Below are positions 6,994 through 17,500 of a stretch of DNA of 64,000 bases, piece by piece (the stretch's first letter is position 1; each line of letters opens with the position of its first letter). Both the position numbers and the translations under genes were made by a program. Source of the DNA: Mangrovibacillus cuniculi (GTDB lineage: Bacteria; Bacillota; Bacilli; Bacillales; R1DC41); assembly GCF_015482585.1 (NCBI RefSeq), contig NZ_CP049742.1:1446501-1510500 (forward strand), written 5' to 3'. The notes under the pieces were generated by a model. It was not told where the DNA came from, did no database searches, and saw nothing but the letters and a program-made list of their open reading frames with translations.

Positions 6994-8277
6994 TTAATAT
7001 AATGGTGTGTTTTCTTTTGAAGTGTTTTCTAAAATTTCTTTTACTCGCTGTAAGAAGCGACCGCACACCAATCCATCTAATACACGGTGGTCTAGAGACA
7101 TACACAGATTAACCATATCTCGAACACCAATCATTCCGTGGTCCATTACTACTGGGCGTTTAACAATAGACTCCACTTGCAAAATAGCTGCTTGCGGGTA
7201 ATTAATAATTCCCATAGATTGAACGGATCCGAACGAACCCGTATTATTGACAGTAAATGTTCCATCCTTCATATCATCAGATGAAAGTTTACCTGCTCTT
7301 ACTTTTCCAGCTAAGTCAGCAATTTCACGAGCAATTCCTTTGATTGTTTTCTCGTCAGCATGTTTAATTACTGGAACGAATAAAGCATCATCCGTCGCAA
7401 CGGCGATAGAGATATTGATGTCTTTTTTCTGGACAATTTTTTCTCCAGCCCACATCGAATTAATCTGAGGGAATTCTTTCAGTGCTTGAGCAACAGCTTT
7501 TACGAAGAATGCAAAGAACGTTAAATTGAATCCTTCTTTTTCTTTAAATTCACCTTTTACGCTATTACGATATGCAACTAAGTTGGTTACATCTACTTCC
7601 ATCATGGTCCATGCATGTGGAACTTCTTGCTTGGCGCGAACCATGTTTTGTGCGATTGCTTTACGAACTCCTGTAACAGGAATCTCTATGTCTCCTTTTC
7701 CTACCGGTACGTAAGGTTGCGCTGGTTTAGGAGTACTTGGTGTAGGCGGAGCAGACTCCATCACTGGAGCAGTCACTTGCTCTTGAACTGGTTCATTAGC
7801 AGACTGTCCACCAGATTCAACAATTGCTAAGATATCTTTTCGCGTTATACGTCCATCTTTTCCGCTTCCTGTAACACGGTTTAAATCAATATCGTGTTCT
7901 TGGGAAAGCTTTAACACCGCTGGAGAATAACGTACTTTTCCTTTCTCAGCAGCTGGCTTGTTAGTCGTTGCAGGAGTAGAAGAGTTACTAATCTCTTCTT
8001 TCTTCTCCACTCTTTTCTCACTAGATGGCGTACTACCTTCTACTTCAACAGCACAGATTACTTCTCCTACCGCTAATGTATCACCTTCATTTGCCACCAA
8101 CTCTTTTACTACTCCTGTAAAAGAAGATGGCACTTCCGCACTAACTTTATCCGTTTGGACTTCCGCAATTGGATCGTATTTATTGATTTTATCACCAGGC
8201 TTTACTAACCAACGTTCAATCGTACCTTCTGTAACACTTTCCCCTAACTGAGGCATGGTCATTTTTTCAATCGCCAT
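6994..8277 (-). CDS. bkdB: Branched-chain 2-oxoacid dehydrogenase E2, dihydrolipoyl acyltransferase
   Basis: This 427-residue core component transfers the branched acyl group from E1 to CoA. It has one N-terminal lipoyl domain with the modified lysine at K44 (TDKVSAE), a proline/alanine-rich linker, a peripheral subunit-binding domain at about 114-150 (VRYSPAVLKLSQEHDIDL), a second linker, and a catalytic acyltransferase domain ending in DHRVLDG with active-site His397. It is the last gene of the bkd operon, before a terminator. Products feed both branched fatty acid synthesis and acyl-CoA catabolism. Confidence 0.95.
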   Translation of the reverse strand: MAIEKMTMPQLGESVTEGTIERWLVKPGDKINKYDPIAEVQTDKVSAEVPSSFTGVVKELVANEGDTLAVGEVICAVEVEGSTPSSEKRVEKKEEISNSSTPATTNKPAAEKGKVRYSPAVLKLSQEHDIDLNRVTGSGKDGRITRKDILAIVESGGQSANEPVQEQVTAPVMESAPPTPSTPKPAQPYVPVGKGDIEIPVTGVRKAIAQNMVRAKQEVPHAWTMMEVDVTNLVAYRNSVKGEFKEKEGFNLTFFAFFVKAVAQALKEFPQINSMWAGEKIVQKKDINISIAVATDDALFVPVIKHADEKTIKGIAREIADLAGKVRAGKLSSDDMKDGTFTVNNTGSFGSVQSMGIINYPQAAILQVESIVKRPVVMDHGMIGVRDMVNLCMSLDHRVLDGLVCGRFLQRVKEILENTSKENTPLY

Positions 8278-8295: not shown

Positions 8296-9279
8296 TTAAA
8301 ATTCTGCAAGTTCTCTCATTGCTTTTTCGACTTTATCTGGATTCATCATGAAATATTTTTCCATCGTAGGTGCATAAGGCATTGCCGGTACATCAGGACC
8401 AGCTAAGCGCTTAATTGGAGCATCAAGGTCAAATAGGCAGTTTTCTGCAATAATGGCTGCCACTTCTCCCATTATGCTTCCTTCTTTATTGTCTTCCGTT
8501 ACTAAAAGTACTTTACCTGTTTTAGATGCAGCTTCTATAATCGCTTCTTTATCTAATGGATAAATGGTACGTAAATCAAGAATGTGTGCAGAAATACCAT
8601 CTTGCGCTAACTTTTCTGCTGCTTGAAGAGCAAAGTGAACACATAGACCGTATGTAATGACTGTAATATCATCACCTTCTCGCTTCACATCAGCCTTTCC
8701 GATAGGAAGCGTGTAATCGTCTGTTGGAACCTCTCCTTTGATTAAACGGTAAGCTCGTTTATGTTCAAAGAATAGCACTGGATCGTCATCTCGAATCGCA
8801 GCTTTTAAAAGTCCTTTGACATCATAAGGAGTAGACGGCATTACGATTTTCAATCCAGGTTGATTAGCAAATACTGCTTCAACAGATTGAGAATGATAAA
8901 GTGCACCATGAACACCACCACCATAAGGAGCACGAACAACAATTGGACAAGTCCAGTCATTGTTAGAACGATAACGAATACGAGCTGCTTCTGAAATAAT
9001 TTGGTTTACTGCAGGCATAATAAAGTCTGCAAATTGCATCTCAGCAATTGGACGCATACCATACATTGCAGCACCGATCCCTACTCCAGCAATTGCGGAT
9101 TCCGCTAGAGGTGTATCTAAAACTCTAGCTTCTCCGAATTGATCGTATAAGCCGTGAGTAGCTTTGAAGACGCCACCTTTTTTCCCTACATCTTCTCCAA
9201 GTACAAATACTTTTTCATCTCGTTCCATTTCTTCTCTTATTGCCATTGTGACAGCATCAATGTAAGAAATTACAGCCAT
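8296..9279 (-). CDS. bkdAB: Branched-chain 2-oxoacid dehydrogenase E1 beta subunit
   Basis: This 327-residue transketolase-like subunit pairs with BkdAA to decarboxylate the keto acids of Val, Leu and Ile with thiamine diphosphate. Motifs typical of E1 beta are visible: VFVLGEDVGKKGGVF near the N-terminus, EMQFADFIMPAVNQI, and RAPYGGGVHGALYHSQS. The C-terminal transketolase domain contains VLLVTEDNKEGSIMGEV. It lies 14 bp after bkdAA with its own ribosome binding site (GGGGGAAAAG). Length and order match B. subtilis bkdAB. Confidence 0.95.
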   Translation of the reverse strand: MAVISYIDAVTMAIREEMERDEKVFVLGEDVGKKGGVFKATHGLYDQFGEARVLDTPLAESAIAGVGIGAAMYGMRPIAEMQFADFIMPAVNQIISEAARIRYRSNNDWTCPIVVRAPYGGGVHGALYHSQSVEAVFANQPGLKIVMPSTPYDVKGLLKAAIRDDDPVLFFEHKRAYRLIKGEVPTDDYTLPIGKADVKREGDDITVITYGLCVHFALQAAEKLAQDGISAHILDLRTIYPLDKEAIIEAASKTGKVLLVTEDNKEGSIMGEVAAIIAENCLFDLDAPIKRLAGPDVPAMPYAPTMEKYFMMNPDKVEKAMRELAEF

Positions 9280-9293
9280 TTGTCTTTTCCCCC

Positions 9294-10292
9294 TTATTCA
9301 TTTTCCGCGTAAACGTACTTTAGTGCATCCTCAGCTTCTGCATAAGGAGCATTCTCGGCATATTCCGTTGCCTCGTTTACTTGCTTCATTACTCGATCAT
9401 TCATTTCTTTTTCTACTTCTTCTGTCAGCACTCCTACTTCACGAAGATACGCAGCAAATGTAATAATCGGATCTTTTGTTTTTGCGTCTTGTACTTCATC
9501 ACCAGAACGATACGTACGATCATCATCATCTGAGGAGTGAGGAGTCAATCGGTAAGAGATCGTTTCAATTAATGTTGGACCTTCTCCACGTCGGCCACGA
9601 TCAGCTGCTTCTTTTACAGCTTTATATACTGCAATAGGGTCATTGCCATCGATTGTGAAGCCAGGCATTCCATAGCCAATTGCACGGTCAGAAACATTTT
9701 CACATGCAAGCTGTTTTTCAATTGGAACAGAAATAGCGTATTTGTTATTTTCACACATAAAGATAACTGGTAACTTATGCACACCAGCAAAGTTTGCTCC
9801 TTCATGGAAATCCCCTTGGTTGGAAGATCCTTCACCAAACGTTACGAATGTTACTAAATCTTTTCCTTCCATTTTACCTGCTAAAGCGATTCCAACAGCA
9901 TGTGGTACTTGTGTTGTTACAGGTGAAGATCCTGTAACAATACGATTTTTCTTTTGGCCAAAATGCCCTGGCATTTGACGTCCACCTGAGTTTGGATCTT
10001 CTGCTTTCGCAAATCCTGATAACATTAAATCAGTAGGTGTCATTCCAAATGTTAAAACAACTCCCATATCACGATAGTAAGGTAAAACATAATCTTTCTC
10101 TCTATCTAGCGCGAAAGCTGCACCAACTTGCGCTGCCTCTTGTCCTTGACAAGAAATAACAAATGGAATTTTTCCAGAACGATTTAATAACCACATACGC
10201 TCGTCAACACGACGTGAAAGTAACATAGTTTCATACATTTCTAGAACAGTTTGATCTGATAAACCTACTGATTGATGACGATTTTCTGTCAT
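9294..10292 (-). CDS. bkdAA: Branched-chain 2-oxoacid dehydrogenase E1 alpha subunit
   Basis: This 332-residue subunit carries the thiamine diphosphate binding signature, which begins FGEGSSNQGDFHEG and ends in CENNKYAIS. The phosphorylation-loop region YRLTPHSSDDDDRTYR is also recognisable. With BkdAB it forms the E1 heterotetramer that acylates the lipoyl arm of BkdB. It sits between lpdV and bkdAB with short spacers, as in B. subtilis. The ATG at 10292 is preceded by GGAGGGATATCT. Confidence 0.95.
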   Translation of the reverse strand: MTENRHQSVGLSDQTVLEMYETMLLSRRVDERMWLLNRSGKIPFVISCQGQEAAQVGAAFALDREKDYVLPYYRDMGVVLTFGMTPTDLMLSGFAKAEDPNSGGRQMPGHFGQKKNRIVTGSSPVTTQVPHAVGIALAGKMEGKDLVTFVTFGEGSSNQGDFHEGANFAGVHKLPVIFMCENNKYAISVPIEKQLACENVSDRAIGYGMPGFTIDGNDPIAVYKAVKEAADRGRRGEGPTLIETISYRLTPHSSDDDDRTYRSGDEVQDAKTKDPIITFAAYLREVGVLTEEVEKEMNDRVMKQVNEATEYAENAPYAEAEDALKYVYAENE

Positions 10293-10310: not shown

Positions 10311-11735
10311 TTATGAATGAATGGCTTTTCCATCAACAGCTAACGCTGCTTCCCCGATTGCCTCTGCTAAAGTAGGATGCGGGTGAATTGTATGGGCAAC
10401 TTCCCACGGGGTAGCATCGAGAACTTTTGCAAGACCCGCTTCAGAAATCATGTCTGTTACATGCGGTCCTATCATATGAACGCCTAACAAATCATCTGTA
10501 TTTTTGTCTGCAATTATTTTGACAAAACCTTCTGATTCCCCGTACACAAGTGCTTTACCTACCGCTTTAAAAGGAAACTTTCCAACTTTAATCTCTAAGC
10601 CTTTGTCTACTGCTTCTTTTTCTGTCAATCCAACACTCGCCATCTCTGGTCTGCTGTATATACATTTAGAAATAAGCGTAGAATCTATTGGGCTAGGTTT
10701 TTGATCTGCAATATGTTCAACGGCGACGATTCCTTCGTGGGATGCAACATGAGCAAGTTGTAAACCACCAATCACATCACCAATCGCATATATATGCGAT
10801 TCTTTCGTTTGGTACATGTTATTCACAGAAATGAACCCATTTTCTACTTGAATATCTGTATTTTCTAACCCAATACCTTCCACATTAGCTTGACGACCCA
10901 CTGATACAAGTAACTTTTCAGATGTAAAGGTTTTCATTTCTCCTTTGACTTCTGCTTGGATAGTTACTTTTCCTTCTTCTTTGGTTAGTGTCTCTGGTAA
11001 TACTTTTGCGTTCAATTCCATCTTAATGCCACGTTTCTTCAAGATTTGGAACATTTCTTTGGAAACATCATGGTCTTCTGTTGGAACAATACGATCCGCA
11101 TACTCCACTACGGTTACCTCTACACCAAAATCGTGTAACATAGATGCCCACTCAATTCCAATTACTCCACCTCCAACAATGGTAATGGAAGTTGGTAATT
11201 GTTCAAGTTGTAATGCATGATCGGAAGATAATACATGCGAACCATCTAATTCTAAACCAGGCAAAGTTCTCGGTCTTGAACCGGTAGCAACAATGACGTT
11301 CTTCGGTATTAACATTTCATTATCTTCTCCGTTGTTCATTTCGACAGAGATAGTACCAGGCATTGGAGAAAAAATAGAAGGCCCTAAAATTCTTCCCATC
11401 CCTTCATAAACATCAATTTTCCCCTGTTTCATCAGATATTGAACACCTTTATGTAACTGATCCACAATAGAGTCTTTTCTTTCTTGTACTTTATTGAAGT
11501 TAAGCGTAGCTCCACTTAAGGAAATCCCATATTTTTCACTCTCTTTAGCTGTAGCAAAAACTTCTGCAGAACGAAGAAGTGCTTTACTTGGGATACACCC
11601 TGCATGCAAACAAGTTCCACCTAATTTTGCTTTTTCTACTATCGCTGTCTTTAGCCCTAGTTGTGAAGCTCGGATGGCTGCAACATAGCCACCCGTTCCT
11701 CCACCAAGGACAACCAGATCATATTCTTGTGCCAT
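10311..11735 (-). CDS. lpdV: Dihydrolipoyl dehydrogenase (E3) of the branched-chain complex
   Basis: This 474-residue flavoprotein reoxidises the dihydrolipoyl group of BkdB with NAD+. It shows the N-terminal FAD motif VVLGGGTGGYVAAIRASQLG, the redox-active disulfide Cys42-Cys47 in GGTCLHAGCIPSK, the NAD motif IVGGGVIGIEWASML, and the C-terminal catalytic HPHPTLAE sequence. Position between buk and bkdAA identifies it as LpdV rather than the pyruvate dehydrogenase E3. Confidence 0.95.
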   Translation of the reverse strand: MAQEYDLVVLGGGTGGYVAAIRASQLGLKTAIVEKAKLGGTCLHAGCIPSKALLRSAEVFATAKESEKYGISLSGATLNFNKVQERKDSIVDQLHKGVQYLMKQGKIDVYEGMGRILGPSIFSPMPGTISVEMNNGEDNEMLIPKNVIVATGSRPRTLPGLELDGSHVLSSDHALQLEQLPTSITIVGGGVIGIEWASMLHDFGVEVTVVEYADRIVPTEDHDVSKEMFQILKKRGIKMELNAKVLPETLTKEEGKVTIQAEVKGEMKTFTSEKLLVSVGRQANVEGIGLENTDIQVENGFISVNNMYQTKESHIYAIGDVIGGLQLAHVASHEGIVAVEHIADQKPSPIDSTLISKCIYSRPEMASVGLTEKEAVDKGLEIKVGKFPFKAVGKALVYGESEGFVKIIADKNTDDLLGVHMIGPHVTDMISEAGLAKVLDATPWEVAHTIHPHPTLAEAIGEAALAVDGKAIHS

Positions 11736-11750
11736 CTGATTTCCTCTCCC

Positions 11751-12854
11751 TTACTTAGTAATTGTTTCTTTCACTTCATTAGGATAGCGCTTAGCTTTTT
11801 CCTCACCTGTTAACACTCGGAGTGCTCCTTCAGCTAATGCTTGTAGCTCATTTTCACCCGGGTGCACTAACACATCAGAGATCCAAGCTACTCTTTCTTG
11901 TATGCTTTTAACAAATGAATTTCCATACGCCAATCCACCAGTCAAAATTATTGCATCTACTTTCCCTGAAAGGACTGCACTTGCACTACCAATTTCTTTC
12001 GCAACTTGATACCCCATCGCTTCAAAAACAAGTTTTGCTTTTTCGTCACCAGCATCAATTCGTTTTTCCACTTCTACTGCATCATTCGTTCCTAAATACC
12101 CAACCATGCCACCTTGACCAACTAATCGCTTCATTAACTCATCACGGTAGTGTTCACCAGAGAAACATAAGTCAATCAAATCACCAGCTGGAACGGTTCC
12201 CGCTCGCTCTGGAGAGAATGGACCATCTCCGTGAAGACCATTATTTACATCTACTACTTTCCCATTCTCATGAACACCTACTGTAATTCCTCCACCCATG
12301 TGAGTGACGATTAAACGAAGTTCTTCATACGGTTTTCCTAATTGTTTTGCTACACGACGTGCAACCGCTTTTTGGTTCAGCGCGTGGAAGATACTTTTTC
12401 TCTCAATTAAGGAGAACCCAGACACTCTTGCAACATCTGCTAATTCATCTACCACCACAGGATCGACAATGAAGGATCTAATACTTAATTGATCCGCAAT
12501 TTCTTTTGCAATAATTCCGCCAAGATTAGATGCGTGCTGACCAGAGAAGCCTTGTCTTAAGTCTTCTATCATCGCTTCATTTACTTCATAGGTTCCACCT
12601 TCAATTGGACGAAGCAATCCACCTCGGCCGCATACAGCATCTAATTTAGAGATATTAATGCCTTCTTCTTTTAAAGAAGCTAAAATCGTCTCTTTTCTAA
12701 ACTCATATTGATCAATAATGGAAGGAAATTGGTTAATTTGTGCTGCATCATGACGTATTGTTTTTTCAAAGAGCACTTGCTCTCCTTCAAAGACGCCAAT
12801 TTTCGTAGAAGTAGACCCAGGGTTAATCGTTAGAATTCTGTATAACTTAGACAC
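11751..12854 (-). CDS. buk: Butyrate kinase
   Basis: This 367-residue acetokinase-family enzyme makes ATP from butyryl- or branched acyl-phosphate. Visible family features are the N-terminal [17 protein letters not shown] phosphate-binding strand, [29 protein letters not shown] and [11 protein letters not shown]. The gene starts with GTG behind GGAGGAAAAAC. A terminator-like hairpin lies between it and bcd, so buk may depend on read-through or on the weak promoter-like TTGCCG-N17-TTACAA in the same gap. It acts together with Ptb. Confidence 0.93.
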
Positions 12855-12964
12855 GTTTTTCCTCCAATATTTCTTAATTTAAGCGCATTCATTTTAATTA
12901 ACAGTTACTTTTGTAATCAAAAAGAATGTATAACGGCAAACTTAATGGTTTTCATTCACGTAAT

Positions 12965-13010
12965 AAAAAGGGAAGATCCAGAACTAAACATCTCTGGACA
13001 ATCCCTTCCC
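12965..13010 (-). terminator. Terminator-like hairpin between bcd and buk
   Basis: Outer arms GGGAAG (12970-12975) and CTTCCC (13005-13010) enclose inner arms TCCAGA (12977-12982) and TCTGGA (12993-12998). On the minus strand the stem is followed by TTTTTATTA. It lies inside the bkd operon just after bcd, so it should reduce transcription of buk and the genes behind it. Confidence 0.65.
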
Positions 13011-13021
13011 TTATCCTAACC

Positions 13022-14116
13022 TTAACGGCCGCTTAAAATATGTTTTCCATTTTGTAAAAATTGGCTTCTAGATTGACGCATACGTTCAATACGCTCTTCT
13101 GCCATACGGTCTGCTGCAACATATGTTGGAATGCCATCACGTTTAGAAATTTCGAACACTTTTTCTACATTATTGTAGATTGTTTCTACACGTTTAATCG
13201 CTCTTTCGTGATTGTAGCCATTCAATTCGTCTGCAACATTGATAACTCCACCAGCGTTAATAACATAGTCTGGTGCATACACAAGACCAAGTTCATGGAT
13301 TAAATCTCCATGACGCGTTTCTTTTAACTGGTTGTTAGCTGCACCTGCAATTACTTTTGCTTTCAATTGTGGAATTGTCTCGTCATTAATAATTGCCCCT
13401 AGTGCACATGGAGCAAAGATATCACAATCAACACTGTAGATTTCATGTACTTCTACCGCTTTTGCATCGAAGTCCTCTACTACACGTTGTACCGCTTCTT
13501 TATTAATATCAGTAACGATTAATTTTGCACCTTCTTCATGTAAATACTTACATAAAGTATACGCTACGTTTCCTACACCTTGAACCGCTACAACTTTTCC
13601 TTCTAATGAATCATGCCCAAATGCTTCTTTCGCAGCAGCTTTCATTCCACGGTATACACCATACGCTGTAACTGGTGAAGGATTTCCTGAAGAACCGAAT
13701 GCAGGAGAGATTCCAGTTACATAGTTTGTTTCTTCATGAATTAAATCCATATCAGCTACAGTTGTACCAACATCTTCTGCCGTAATATAACGTCCATTTA
13801 ACCCTTGGATATAGCGACCAAATGCACGGAACATCTCTTCATTTTTATCTTTACGAGGATCTCCAATGATTACTGTTTTACCTCCACCCAGGTTAAGCCC
13901 CGCTGCAGCATTTTTATATGTCATACCTTTTGCTAGACGTAATGCATCTTCAATAGCTGCTTCTTCATTTTCATACGTCCACATACGAGTACCACCTAAA
14001 GCTGGTCCTAAGGTAGTATCGTGAATAGCAATAATTGCTTTTAAGCCAGAAGTTTTATCTTGGCAAAAAACTAACTGCTCATAATCATAAGTCTCCATAT
14101 AGTCAAAAATTTTCAT
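13022..14116 (-). CDS. bcd: Leucine (branched-chain amino acid) dehydrogenase
   Basis: This 364-residue Glu/Leu/Phe/Val dehydrogenase deaminates Leu, Ile and Val to their 2-oxo acids with NAD+. The family signature with the catalytic lysine appears as [20 protein letters not shown]. The NAD-binding fold is marked by [17 protein letters not shown]. It is second in the operon, after ptb, and feeds its products directly to the Bkd complex. It has a good ribosome binding site (TAGGAGGAACCG) before the ATG at 14116. Confidence 0.95.
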
Positions 14117-14134: not shown

Positions 14135-15040
14135 TTAATTTGATGTTGTGCAAATTGCTAGAGCTAAAGAATATAGTTTACTTTCAGCAGAGTCCGCTCT
14201 TGATGTTAATACAATTGGAGCCTTCGCTCCTGCGATCACCGCTCCAACTTTTGCATTTGCGAAATATACTAAAGATTTATATAAGACATTTCCTGCTTCA
14301 ATAGTAGGAACCATCAATATATCGGCATTACCTGCTACTTCCCCTTTTATGCCTTTGTGTTCTGCAGCAGTAATAGAGATGGCATTGTCTAATGCAAGTG
14401 GACCATCAACCGATGCGCCTTTTATTTGGCCTCTACTTGCCATTTGTACCAAGGCAGCTGCATCTAATGTAGCTTGCATGGAAGGATTGACAACTTCTAC
14501 AGCAGTTAATACTGCTACTTTCGGTTTGTTAATACCAACGCTAGTCGCAATGGAGATGGAATTTTGAATAATTTGCGCTTTTTGCGTAAGATCTGGTGCA
14601 ATATTCATTGCAGCATCTGTTACCCAAATTAACCTTTCGAAGCCATCCACTTCAAACGCTGCGACATGTGAAAGAACAGCACCAGTTCGTAATCCCCATT
14701 CTTTATTCAACACAGCCTTTAATAGCGTAGCTGTAGGTACGTGCCCTTTCATTAACACTGTAGCTTCACCTGAAGAAACGGATTGAACTGCTTTTGTGGC
14801 AGCATCTGTTGCCGACTGTGTCGGTACAAATGTTACGGCATCTGTAGATAACAATTCTGGAAATGACTGTTTTGCTAAATGAACCATTTTGGACTCATTT
14901 CCAAAAAGTAAAAATGAGGCTAGTCCTTCTCTCACTGCCATTTGAACGGACTCTAATACCTCTAAGTCCGCTGCGTCGGCAACTGCTACAATCGCAGTTG
15001 ATTGAGACCTTGCCCTTTGACGAAAATGTTCTAAAGACAT
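14135..15040 (-). CDS. ptb: Phosphate butyryltransferase
   Basis: This 301-residue member of the phosphate acetyl/butyryl transferase family exchanges CoA for phosphate on butyryl- and branched acyl-CoA. It shows VLMKGHVPTATLLKAVL, RLIWVTDAAMNIAPDL and a C-terminal KVGAVIAGAKAPIVLTSRAD typical of the family. The gene begins only 11 bp after bkdR. No -24/-12 sigma-54 promoter is visible in the roughly 110 nt before it, so transcription probably comes from the bkdR promoter. Confidence 0.93.
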   Translation of the reverse strand: MSLEHFRQRARSQSTAIVAVADAADLEVLESVQMAVREGLASFLLFGNESKMVHLAKQSFPELLSTDAVTFVPTQSATDAATKAVQSVSSGEATVLMKGHVPTATLLKAVLNKEWGLRTGAVLSHVAAFEVDGFERLIWVTDAAMNIAPDLTQKAQIIQNSISIATSVGINKPKVAVLTAVEVVNPSMQATLDAAALVQMASRGQIKGASVDGPLALDNAISITAAEHKGIKGEVAGNADILMVPTIEAGNVLYKSLVYFANAKVGAVIAGAKAPIVLTSRADSAESKLYSLALAICTTSN

Positions 15041-15051
15041 TTCTACACCCC

Positions 15052-17118
15052 CTATTCCACTTCCATTTCTTCTATTTCATACTTTTCTAACTTATAGTAT
15101 AAATTTCGCACAGAAATTTGTAGCCTCTTTGCAGCTGCTGTCTTGTTTCCACCACAAGCTTGAATTGCTTCTTGAATAATTGTCTTTTCAACATGTTCTA
15201 GTTTCTCTACTAATCCCATGGATGATTCTTCTTGATCTGTAAAGGAGATAGAGTTGTTACGCCATGAAGTTAAGCTGGGAAGATCATCAGCCGTCATCCA
15301 ATGTTTATGGAAGTCCATAAATATTAAAGCTCGAGACAATACGTTTTCTAACTCACGAATGTTCCCTGGCCAATCATATTCCATTAATCGTTTCATCGCC
15401 TCTTCATCAATACCTTTAACAGATCTTCCAAAGTCCGTATTTATTCGATCAATAAAAGTTTGACTGAGAGTCGGAATATCTTCTTTTCTTCTTTTTAATG
15501 GTGGTAGCTGTATCGGCATTCGATTTAATCGGTAATACAAATCTTCACGGAAGGTGCCTCTGGCCATTTCCTTCTCTAGATTTTTTGCAGATGCAGCAAT
15601 TACCCTCACTTGAATAGGTATAGGTTCTTTTCCACCAATTCTCCAAAGTTCTTTATCTTGTAATACGCGAAGTAATTTTGTTTGAGCAGTTAGTGGCAAA
15701 TCAGCGATTTCATCTAGGAAAATCGTGCCTCCATGAGCCTCTTCAAAGAAGCCTCTTTTCACAAACTTACGAAAACCTGCGTCTTCTTCTCCTTCAAAGC
15801 CAAATAATTCTTGCTCAGCCATGTTTTTAGAGAATGACCCACAGTGCACTCGAACAAATTTATTATACTTTCGGTCACTTTCATAATGGATCGCATGTGC
15901 CAATAATTCTTTACCTGTGCCCGAATCACCTCGAAGTAATACAGCAGCTGGTGTCTTAGCTGCCACTCTCGCTTGTTCCACTACTAAGCTCATTTCTTCA
16001 GAAACAGCGATAATGTCCTCAAAAGTGTAGGTTTCTTCTAAACTTCGAATCATTTTACGAGCTCTAGAAAGTTCTTCGGTTAACGCTTTTATTTCACTGA
16101 CATCGTGAATAACTCCAACACTGCCCTTTAGTTTCCCATTAACAATTATTGGAGCAACATTAACAATAACTTCTTTTCTATTTGGCCCAACTTTCATTCG
16201 AACACCACGAACTGGCTTTCTTGTATTCAGAACCTGCAGGTGGACACTTTCTCCTTCATAGATATCAGCTTGTGCTCCCTTGCCAATTATCTCCTCTTTA
16301 GAAAGTCCAGTAATCCTTGAGTATGCAGGATTCACCATTAATCCTGTCCCATGTTCATCTACTACTGAAATCGCTTCATCACTAGAGTGAATAATCGCTT
16401 CCAACATGGAATGAACATCTTTTAAATCTGTTAGTTCTTCAGCTAAATGAACAATTTCCGTGACATCTTTAAAAACGGCAAATGCACCAAGCATTTGATC
16501 GTCTTCAGAAATGATTGGAATTCTTGTCGTAATAATGTGCCTTCCATTTGGCAGTACTAGGCGTTGATTAACTTCTGTTCGCTTTGTTTCTAATATCCTC
16601 ATCAATTGTGAAGTAGAGATAGCATTAGACACTAGCATACCTATATGTACGTGTCTAGATAAGCCAGTCATGCGCTCTGCACTCTCATTGATAAATGTAA
16701 TAACTCCATCAGGATCCACTACAATCATACCGTCATTAGTCGCATTAAAAATTAATTCTTGTTTATATGAGGTATTTTCCAATTCTTCAATCAATTGCTC
16801 TTTTTCTTTCAATAACCTTGAAACCAAATGAGCAATTGTTCCAGAAATTAATTGGGTATTGGAATGTGCGCTATTCTCTAACTCTTTTTTAAATTCCAGA
16901 TTTCCCGTTACATCAAAAATAATCTGCACATCTTTTGTGTAGATATCTTTCCATTTTTTCGAAGTTGGGATGGATAATTGTTTTGCCAAGTGGATTCCTG
17001 GTGCTTGTTCATTTTGATCCACTACACCAACGATGTGATACATGTCTAGCTGAGAAAGCATGTTGATAACGGCTACTCCACCTTTACCCGCACCAATCAC
17101 TAATACATTATGCAACAT
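15052..17118 (-). CDS. bkdR: BkdR, AAA+ activator of the bkd operon, with a non-canonical sigma-54 contact loop
   Basis: This 688-residue regulator has an N-terminal Rossmann-like segment (VLVIGAGKGGVAVINML), two PAS domains (roughly 120-230 and 235-345), an AAA+ domain (Walker A GDSGTGKE, Walker B GGTIFLDEIAD) and a C-terminal Fis-type helix-turn-helix at 656-681. After ELFG (437-440) the usual EKGAFTGA loop is absent. The sequence reads FEGEEDAGFRKF instead, so the residues that normally contact sigma-54 are missing. The start at 17118 is chosen because AGGAGGAAAG precedes it; an upstream ATG would lie before that site. In B. subtilis this gene is a sigma-L-dependent activator of bkd. Confidence 0.9.
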   Translation of the reverse strand: MLHNVLVIGAGKGGVAVINMLSQLDMYHIVGVVDQNEQAPGIHLAKQLSIPTSKKWKDIYTKDVQIIFDVTGNLEFKKELENSAHSNTQLISGTIAHLVSRLLKEKEQLIEELENTSYKQELIFNATNDGMIVVDPDGVITFINESAERMTGLSRHVHIGMLVSNAISTSQLMRILETKRTEVNQRLVLPNGRHIITTRIPIISEDDQMLGAFAVFKDVTEIVHLAEELTDLKDVHSMLEAIIHSSDEAISVVDEHGTGLMVNPAYSRITGLSKEEIIGKGAQADIYEGESVHLQVLNTRKPVRGVRMKVGPNRKEVIVNVAPIIVNGKLKGSVGVIHDVSEIKALTEELSRARKMIRSLEETYTFEDIIAVSEEMSLVVEQARVAAKTPAAVLLRGDSGTGKELLAHAIHYESDRKYNKFVRVHCGSFSKNMAEQELFGFEGEEDAGFRKFVKRGFFEEAHGGTIFLDEIADLPLTAQTKLLRVLQDKELWRIGGKEPIPIQVRVIAASAKNLEKEMARGTFREDLYYRLNRMPIQLPPLKRRKEDIPTLSQTFIDRINTDFGRSVKGIDEEAMKRLMEYDWPGNIRELENVLSRALIFMDFHKHWMTADDLPSLTSWRNNSISFTDQEESSMGLVEKLEHVEKTIIQEAIQACGGNKTAAAKRLQISVRNLYYKLEKYEIEEMEVE

Positions 17119-17174
17119 CTTTCCTCCTATGTACACATTAAATTCTTTTAATATGCAAATCTTTTCATAGTGTA

Positions 17175-17257: not shown

Positions 17258-17500
17258 ATGACTAGAATCATCGCCCTTATCATACTTGTTATCCCAGCAA
17301 TATTGGCTGTCTACGGAATTAAACTAATGAGAGATATGGCTTTCCAAATACTAACACCACCATTTCCTGCTTTATGGATGCAATTTTTAGCAGGATTGTT
17401 ATTTTTCATCCTTGGATTAGCTTTTGTTGCAGGATTCATCTTACATCGTGACCGCAAACAAAATAAAGTGCAAGAGCGTTTTAAGTCACCCAATGCATAA
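17258..17500 (+). CDS. yqzF: DUF2627 small membrane protein (YqzF)
   Basis: This 80-residue protein has two hydrophobic segments (about 4-24 and 42-64) and a basic C-terminus, as in the DUF2627 family. Function is unknown. It is divergent from bkdR and convergent with the glycerophosphodiesterase gene, the same position as B. subtilis yqzF. The ribosome binding site AGAGGAG lies about 7 nt before the ATG. Confidence 0.85.
   Translation: MTRIIALIILVIPAILAVYGIKLMRDMAFQILTPPFPALWMQFLAGLLFFILGLAFVAGFILHRDRKQNKVQERFKSPNA

Follow-up and report, generated by a model that had tools for sequence, protein, structure and literature searches.

How can a regulator built like a sigma-54 activator control its operon once its sigma-54 contact loop has gone? 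The question is posed by bkdR in a stretch of 64,000 nucleotides from Mangrovibacillus cuniculi (contig NZ_CP049742.1; the whole stretch is called the window here), where it precedes the branched-chain degradation genes ptb-bcd-buk-lpd-bkd. Our answer, which we consider probable, is that the sigma-54 promoter of the operon was lost and the operon came under the autoregulated bkdR promoter, where BkdR would likely act as a ligand-relieved repressor with ordinary RNA polymerase, while the GAFTGA loop decayed and rpoN was often lost. Comparison identifies the window protein as a genuine BkdR orthologue that has ceased to work with sigma-54. It lies in front of the ptb and bkd genes, shares the PAS-PAS-AAA-HTH_8 architecture and full-length similarity of the BkdR group, and carries the AAA+ domain of sigma-54 enhancer-binding proteins (EBPs; PF00158, Sigma54_activat, E 5.8e-56). 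Against the TyrR equivalog model NF008085 it scores 254.4 bits, below the cut-off of 576.

At the place where relatives carry YEEGAFSGAKRGGKRG in the alignment, the L1 loop of window BkdR reads FEGEEDAGFRKFVKRG, and the minus strand of 15740-15828 translates to KNMAEQELFGFEGEEDAGFRKFVKRGFFE. This EBP thus has no GAFTGA between ELFG and Walker B, as a preliminary description of the locus had claimed, the frame reading ELFG-FEGEEDAGFRKFVKRG-FFE. The same description was correct that no alternative frame recovers the motif: it is absent from both other reading frames over 15740-15828, and a local indel or frameshift was rejected as the cause of the change. Since the loop is as long as in relatives, it was lost by substitution without net indel, and chance is a poor explanation given that 175 of 183 genomes of the order with RpoN have GAF[ST]GA there. 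The span proposed earlier, 15775-15798, encodes FEGEEDAG and falls inside the odd stretch, which extends further (Table 1). The numbering of ELFG as residues 437-440 fits the 688-residue protein (443-446 in the 694-residue reading frame with a GTG start), since the start is probably the ATG behind AGGAGG. That the rest of the AAA+ domain is intact holds for Walker A, Walker B, both R-finger arginines and the sensor II arginine, but not for sensor I, which is S-A in the window and T-N (171) or T-H (6) in the 177 sequences that keep the motif. Compared with the consensus of these sequences, the window AAA domain is 62% identical (their mean 87%) and its PAS2 domain 70% (their mean 80%).

Neither PF04552 nor PF04963 found RpoN in the window assembly (3.15 Mb, 2 contigs, 98% complete), and BkdR is its sole Sigma54_activat protein at E<=1e-25, four further stretches matching at E 6e-11 or worse. 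Because no RpoN was found and BkdR is the only clear EBP, these searches leave almost no room for sigma-54 dependence of the window protein. Before the window ptb, no -24/-12 element scores 14 or more; the best reaches 11.5 of 16.5. A strong match to the 'sigma-54 interaction domain' PF00158 is therefore not the same as sigma-54 dependence.

Table 1. Features of the bkdR locus in the window, and of the comparable loci of family f49
Feature	Position	Strand	Remarks
bkdR, PAS-PAS-AAA+-HTH_8 regulator, 688 aa	15052..17118	-	Pfam Sigma54_activat 5.8e-56, PAS (2 stretches), AAA_lid_14, HTH_8
bkdR start	probably ATG 17118, Shine-Dalgarno AGGAGG 17128-17123	-	694-aa GTG reading frame begins 17136
Degenerate L1 loop FEGEEDAGFRKFVKRG replacing YEEGAFSGAKRGGKRG	15751..15798	-	16 residues between ELFG and FFEEA
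Sigma-A-like promoter of bkdR	-35 TTGTCA 17203-17198, 17-nt spacer, -10 TACACT 17180-17175	-	similar promoters in relatives
Likely BkdR operator TGAAAAGATTTGCA	17154..17167	-	1 mismatch to TGCAAN4TTGCA
bkdR-ptb gap, 11 nt, too short for a promoter	15041..15051	-	motif-bearing relatives with ptb next: median 135 nt
ptb, phosphate butyryltransferase, first structural gene behind bkdR	14135..15040	-	NCBIfam NF005837 over cut-off
bcd, amino-acid dehydrogenase, presumably leucine dehydrogenase (by position)	13022..14116	-	NCBIfam ScyB model 5.6e-131, under cut-off
buk, butyrate kinase	11751..12854	-	TIGR02707 over cut-off
lpdV, dihydrolipoyl dehydrogenase	10311..11735	-	TIGR01350 over cut-off
bkdAA, 2-oxoacid dehydrogenase E1 alpha	9294-10292	-	TIGR03181 under cut-off; bkd name by position
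bkdAB, 2-oxoacid dehydrogenase E1 beta	8296-9279	-	NF004309 under cut-off; bkd name by position
bkdB, 2-oxoacid dehydrogenase E2	6994-8277	-	NF006667 over cut-off; bkd name by position
DUF2627 gene, 80 aa, divergent, shares the bkdR promoter region	17258..17500	+	PF11118 1.8e-37
f49 loci with two operators and extended -10-like sequence	L274-L282, L284-L286, L290		loop degraded: GAMPG, GALPG, GTIPG and similar

Loss of the loop and absence of RpoN go together across the order. We searched 348 of its genomes, of which 294 had a BkdR-like match at E<=1e-100, and read 209 loci. RpoN was over the cut-off in 302 of the 348, judged by one Pfam domain in most genomes and by two in 32; the other 46 comprise 26 with BkdR, all of them among the loci read, and 20 without such a match (G300 was counted here, its PF04552 match being below the cut-off and PF04963 finding nothing). 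GAF[ST]GA, almost invariant among relatives and absent from several lineages, is missing in 24 of the 26 genomes without RpoN, including all 24 that are at least 90% complete. Both exceptions come from incomplete assemblies (80% and 62%, with 7 and 10 EBPs), in which rpoN was probably missed. BkdR is the sole EBP (E<=1e-25) in 19 of the 24 genomes lacking both RpoN and motif, and has one companion in the other five. Eight genomes with RpoN lack the motif: G119 reads GSFTGA, G331 has a truncated gene, and six look decoupled (G029, G038, G222, G245, G089 with GAFEGA and G118 with GAFPGA), having RpoN by both domains and 1-4 other EBPs. In G331 (locus L167), the 423-aa open frame ends before the AAA loop and ptb follows; loci L054 and L055 read EMFG instead of ELFG before GAFSGA. 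For all promoter and later counts, we separate loci with the motif (GAF+, including G119) from those without (GAF-), dropping G016, in which neither ptb nor bcd was found; G331 is left out of the -10/operator geometry, residue-conservation and cre counts, and one further GAF+ locus with a short upstream region is left out of the geometry. Twelve of the 31 GAF- rows come from one genus, so genome counts overstate the number of independent events.

The promoter follows the loop closely. A -24/-12 element (at least 14 of 16.5 points, searched over the 220 nt that precede ptb or bcd; the consensus sequences and weights for -24/-12, cre and sigma-A elements were set for this analysis) occurs in 170 of 177 GAF+ loci and in none of the 31 GAF- loci. 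A leftover sigma-54 promoter was sought in the latter and rejected, as the best GGN10GC matches score at most 13.5, and many of them resemble codons for G-N-K-T-A of the helix-turn-helix (HTH). A search for -24/-12-like strings at <=2 mismatches gave 42 in the window against a chance mean of 26 and was not used, the pattern being too loose. The space for a promoter has shrunk as well: in the 137 GAF+ loci with ptb next, bkdR and ptb are 100-859 nt apart (median 135), compared with at most 69 nt (median 21) in the 31 GAF- loci, where one value of -322 reflects the truncated G331 gene. In Bacillus thuringiensis, both sigma-54 and BkdR are reported to be required at the ptb promoter (PMC4428206).

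The predicted operator points in the same direction. The palindrome TGCAAN4TTGCA, derived here from the GAF+ gaps, is common in them ahead of the -24 element, in many cases with a cre-like box separating the two. If one mismatch is allowed, 167/177 GAF+ and 5/31 GAF- loci have it in the bkdR-ptb region, the GAF- regions being shorter and the comparison without a shuffle control, and two or more copies (<=2 mismatches) are found in 169/177 and 1/31, respectively. Upstream of bkdR, the operator is kept: within 400 nt (<=1 mismatch) in 114/177 GAF+ and 29/31 GAF- loci, and within 150 nt in 114/176 and 27/30, where dinucleotide shuffles give 1.5% and 2%. Measured from the end of the best sigma-A-like -10 element, the operator centre is 14 nt downstream (median) in GAF+ and GAF- loci alike. 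The window has the same arrangement by sequence, a TTGTCA-17-TACACT promoter with a predicted operator centred 14 nt after the -10 end, that is, over the expected transcript start.

The cre-like box has changed place too. At <=2 mismatches it occurs in the gap of 91/177 GAF+ loci and 1/30 GAF- loci, and upstream of bkdR in 15/177 and 21/30 (shuffles of the upstream region 0-1%). The 21 GAF- rows are 6 of the 7 from family f2, all 12 from f39 and all 3 from f30, the form in f39 and f30 being weaker and without the central CG. A box moved upstream of bkdR would be expected if the operon transcript now starts there. In B. cereus, a putative cre is reported to precede the bkd operon, whose expression is raised in a ccpA mutant (PMC2358912).

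The proteins that lost the loop do not look abandoned. Open frames of at least 670 aa persist in 30 of 31 GAF- genomes. Seven GAF- pairs drawn from f39, f2 and f14 have a whole-gene ratio of nonsynonymous to synonymous substitution rates (dN/dS) of 0.02-0.11, dS being saturated in two of them. A pseudogene was rejected on these grounds. Walker A Lys and Walker B Asp are kept in 30/30 GAF- sequences, the two R-finger arginines in 13/30 and 14/30, and sensor I is variable; of the HTH, the three positions tested (R, N and the first Y of RNLYY) are invariant. Within families, AAA identity is 0.91-0.95 in five GAF+ families versus 0.72 (f39) and 0.77 (f2), while PAS2 identity stays at 0.85-0.94 in all seven without a drop in GAF-. 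By these measures BkdR of f39, f2 and f14 is under purifying selection, with relaxed constraint on the machinery for ATP hydrolysis. Binding of nucleotide may still be important, by analogy with NtrC of Rhodobacter capsulatus, for which ATP binding and not hydrolysis is reported as necessary (PMC10274813).

From these patterns a course of events can be proposed. The ancestral BkdR would have bound TGCAAN4TTGCA in the bkdR-ptb gap and switched on the -24/-12 promoter of the degradation operon, and would also have bound its own sigma-A promoter across the start region, giving autoregulation. Such ancestral autorepression is suggested by the operator geometry and by the B. thuringiensis EBP SoxR, described as negatively autoregulated at a promoter without -12/-24 via the same upstream activating sequence (PMC4941409). 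In the window lineage, as in others, the gap appears to have disappeared together with its sigma-54 promoter and operators, so that ptb-bcd-buk-lpd-bkd would have become the tail of the bkdR transcript. The remaining operator lies just downstream of the -10 element and overlaps the expected transcript start, for which reason BkdR most likely represses the operon as a whole, and a ligand of the PAS domains would relieve the repression (branched-chain 2-oxo acids are our guess). With no sigma-54 target left, the GAFTGA loop would have been free to drift, followed by other ATPase residues, while the nucleotide-binding residues, PAS sensors and HTH were kept; rpoN would often have been lost as well. 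The direction of control is the weakest step of this mechanism. The idea of the preliminary description, that BkdR acts on sigma-A promoters or in another mode as TyrR does, is supported by two checks it named, the comparison of orthologues over the loop and the search for rpoN, and by the lack of a -24/-12 element before ptb; a sigma-A-like promoter is the likely one in use.

How often this happened can be estimated from a quick tree of 111 BkdR sequences, built with the AAA columns left out. The loop state changes eight times on it: in the window family f1, f2 (7 genomes), g103 (2) and g49 (2) of f7, g14 (2) of f14, f30 (3), G186 of f36 and f39 (12). The window sequence forms a long branch, and long branches meeting at f14 g14 prompted a program warning. 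Since the bkdR promoters of f30 and f39 are very much alike, seven events are possible instead of eight, and the tree suggests about 7-8 losses in the order. In a sign test on starred branches, the gap follows the loop in 5/5 independent pairs (p 0.0625, the best possible), the -24/-12 element in 4.6 on average and RpoN in 3.2, with none opposite. Jeotgalibacillus (f39) includes J. campisalis (G078), which is without RpoN, and J. soli (G038). That J. soli and G029 of f30 have RpoN together with a decoupled BkdR is most simply explained if decoupling can precede the loss of rpoN; the alternative would be that rpoN was regained by transfer. Loss of the loop does not need loss of RpoN, seven genomes of the order with RpoN being without it.

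Outside the order, we sampled 398 genomes of the class and read 46 loci, 15 without and 31 with RpoN (23 of the latter, outside family f49, hand-picked among many). Eighteen BkdR-bearing genomes there have no RpoN over the cut-off, G587 and G640 showing sub-threshold matches. In f49, 21 of 24 genomes with BkdR were read (G349, G390 and G695, all without RpoN, were left out), and all 21 (13 without RpoN, 8 with) lack GAF[ST]GA and score <14 for -24/-12; the 25 other loci have GAFTGA in 25/25 and the promoter in 24/25. Eight f49 loci have a gap of at most 73 nt and keep the operator upstream of bkdR. The other 13 retain two operators and some 135 nt between bkdR and ptb, and their -24/-12 site reads TGNTTTAAT (10) or TGNTTAAAT (3), an extended -10-like sequence. 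These loci may represent a second route of decoupling, in which BkdR may activate.

A more general proposal, which we put forward tentatively and not quite as our expectation, is that the route is repeated and predictable. An EBP gene that represses itself at its own sigma-A promoter would be a ready fallback; loss of the short sigma-54 promoter region behind it would place the target operon under this promoter, turn the activator into a sigma-A repressor in one step and free the loop, and rpoN could be lost after the last EBP was decoupled. Family f49 would be a second route taken in place, and decoupled genomes with RpoN, such as J. soli, would be surviving intermediates.

Other explanations of the window locus fare less well. 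Activation of the fused operon from the sigma-A promoter by a sigma-54-independent BkdR, in the manner of some GAFTGA-less EBPs, seems unlikely to us, though it has real precedent: NtrC of R. capsulatus and Caulobacter activates sigma-70 promoters without GAFTGA, as reported in PMC10274813, and the 13 f49 loci place two operators upstream of an extended -10-like sequence at the former -24/-12 site. In 24 of 30 GAF- loci, including the window, however, the operator centre lies 14-19 nt downstream of the best -10 end, which suits repression, and this arrangement is also frequent in front of bkdR in GAF+ loci. It is improbable that BkdR is simply decaying without a regulatory role, the operon being expressed from the bkdR promoter regardless; the relaxed AAA domain, the R-finger arginines kept in fewer than half of the GAF- sequences and the partial deletion of the loop in several lineages would fit, but the long open frames, the low dN/dS and the retained PAS2, HTH positions and operator would not. 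Continued sigma-54 dependence, with rpoN in unassembled DNA and an odd but functional loop, is very improbable: the assembly is indeed 98% and not 100% complete, but nothing of GAFTGA is left, no -24/-12 promoter lies before ptb, the gap is 11 nt long, no other EBP reaches E<=1e-25, and the same losses recur in 23 further genomes without RpoN that are at least 90% complete. A sequencing error, frameshift or mis-assembly at the loop is next to impossible; we found no point in its favour, and no frame restores the motif, neither the length nor the flanking sequence is unusual, and the losses linked to it at other places of the locus and genome are independent of the loop stretch.

Several observations weigh against the repressor model as we propose it. 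The loop is gone in seven genomes of the order with RpoN, one of which has a truncated gene, and outside the order G369 and G587 have no RpoN over the cut-off and yet keep GAFTGA and -24/-12; both are drafts (90 and 170 contigs, G587 with a partial RpoN match at E 5.7e-4), and they are either true exceptions or assemblies that miss rpoN. The two operators upstream of ptb in the 13 f49 loci suit activation and not repression. In the window itself, the operator has one mismatch, and the 64 kb contain four such matches, the chance mean being 4.0; all four fall between 17154 and 17852, where the bkdR promoter has one and the adjacent DUF2627 and 17572-18300 genes contain the other three. The window family f1 is a single genome, so promoter and operator rest on one sequence compared with relatives, and no cre box at <=2 mismatches precedes its bkdR (best 3). 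The predicted operator might serve the divergent DUF2627 gene too, and the bcd-buk gap (12855-13021, 167 nt) has room for another promoter. The sign test has five pairs, p cannot fall below 0.0625, and RpoN follows the loop in 3.2 of them. From the literature, CcpA is reported to have no role at the B. subtilis bkd operon (PMC2358912), and a sigL deletion lowered the autoregulated SoxR promoter, unlike simple autorepression (PMC4941409).

To our knowledge, few worked examples exist of bacteria abandoning a sigma factor whose activators depend on it. Here, one orthologous regulator shows the states before, between and after across about 7-8 lineages of a single order, and the loop, promoter, operator, cre box and rpoN can all be read in them. 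The mechanism is concrete and testable; named Jeotgalibacillus species represent both the RpoN-negative and the intermediate state. The BkdR of B. subtilis and B. thuringiensis, a sigma-L/sigma-54 activator of the bkd operon, holds the same place before ptb and has the same kind of domains with two PAS; the window locus differs in having no GAFTGA and no -24/-12, no RpoN that could be found, and a ptb gap of 11 nt. That GAFTGA-less EBPs can act with sigma-70 is already known. TyrR, DhaR and HupR come from Proteobacteria with RpoN. TyrR and DhaR of Escherichia coli and HupR of R. capsulatus are likewise AAA+ EBPs that lost the sigma-54 loop and are described as sigma-70 dependent, but they belong to other orthologous groups, and in the relevant passages of PMC3162934 no target promoter is said to have been lost along with the loop. 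NtrC of R. capsulatus and Caulobacter, a response regulator whose L1 loop is deleted, is reported to regulate sigma-70 promoters (PMC10274813). Caulobacter retains the GAFTGA EBPs TacA and FlbD; in BkdR, unlike NtrC, loop and promoter have been lost repeatedly inside a single orthologous group. Also comparable are EBPs of Fusobacterium nucleatum and Jannaschia, with no sigma-54 in the genome, a Thr/Ser to Glu change in the loop and sigma-70 use proposed, two cases that come without promoter or operator comparison in the account of Francke et al. (PMC3162934). SoxR of B. thuringiensis resembles the proposed ancestral BkdR as a sigma-54 EBP with negative autoregulation via the same upstream activating sequence, but differs from window BkdR in still being sigma-54 dependent, sigma-54 also acting positively on the autoregulated promoter (PMC4941409). 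A 2025 survey of sigma-54 covers GAFTGA proteins only, and BkdR does not occur in it (PMC12316311). Among the literature matches listed (titles and beginnings of abstracts, mostly from non-subscription journals), none reports the repeated BkdR route.

Further EBP-like proteins show altered loops in two of the families concerned. Jeotgalibacillus has a second one of about 445 aa (AAA, HTH) with the L1 loop deleted (L251:886-2220 in G258, L254 in G038, L255 in G300), and a second EBP scores E 1e-26 to 1e-32 in 4 of 11 f39 genomes without RpoN. In f30, a second EBP-like protein (PAS-AAA-HTH_8), presumably RocR-like, has the L1 loop deleted and Walker B altered, and is found in one genome without RpoN (L252:938-2335, G072) and one with it (L253, G029).

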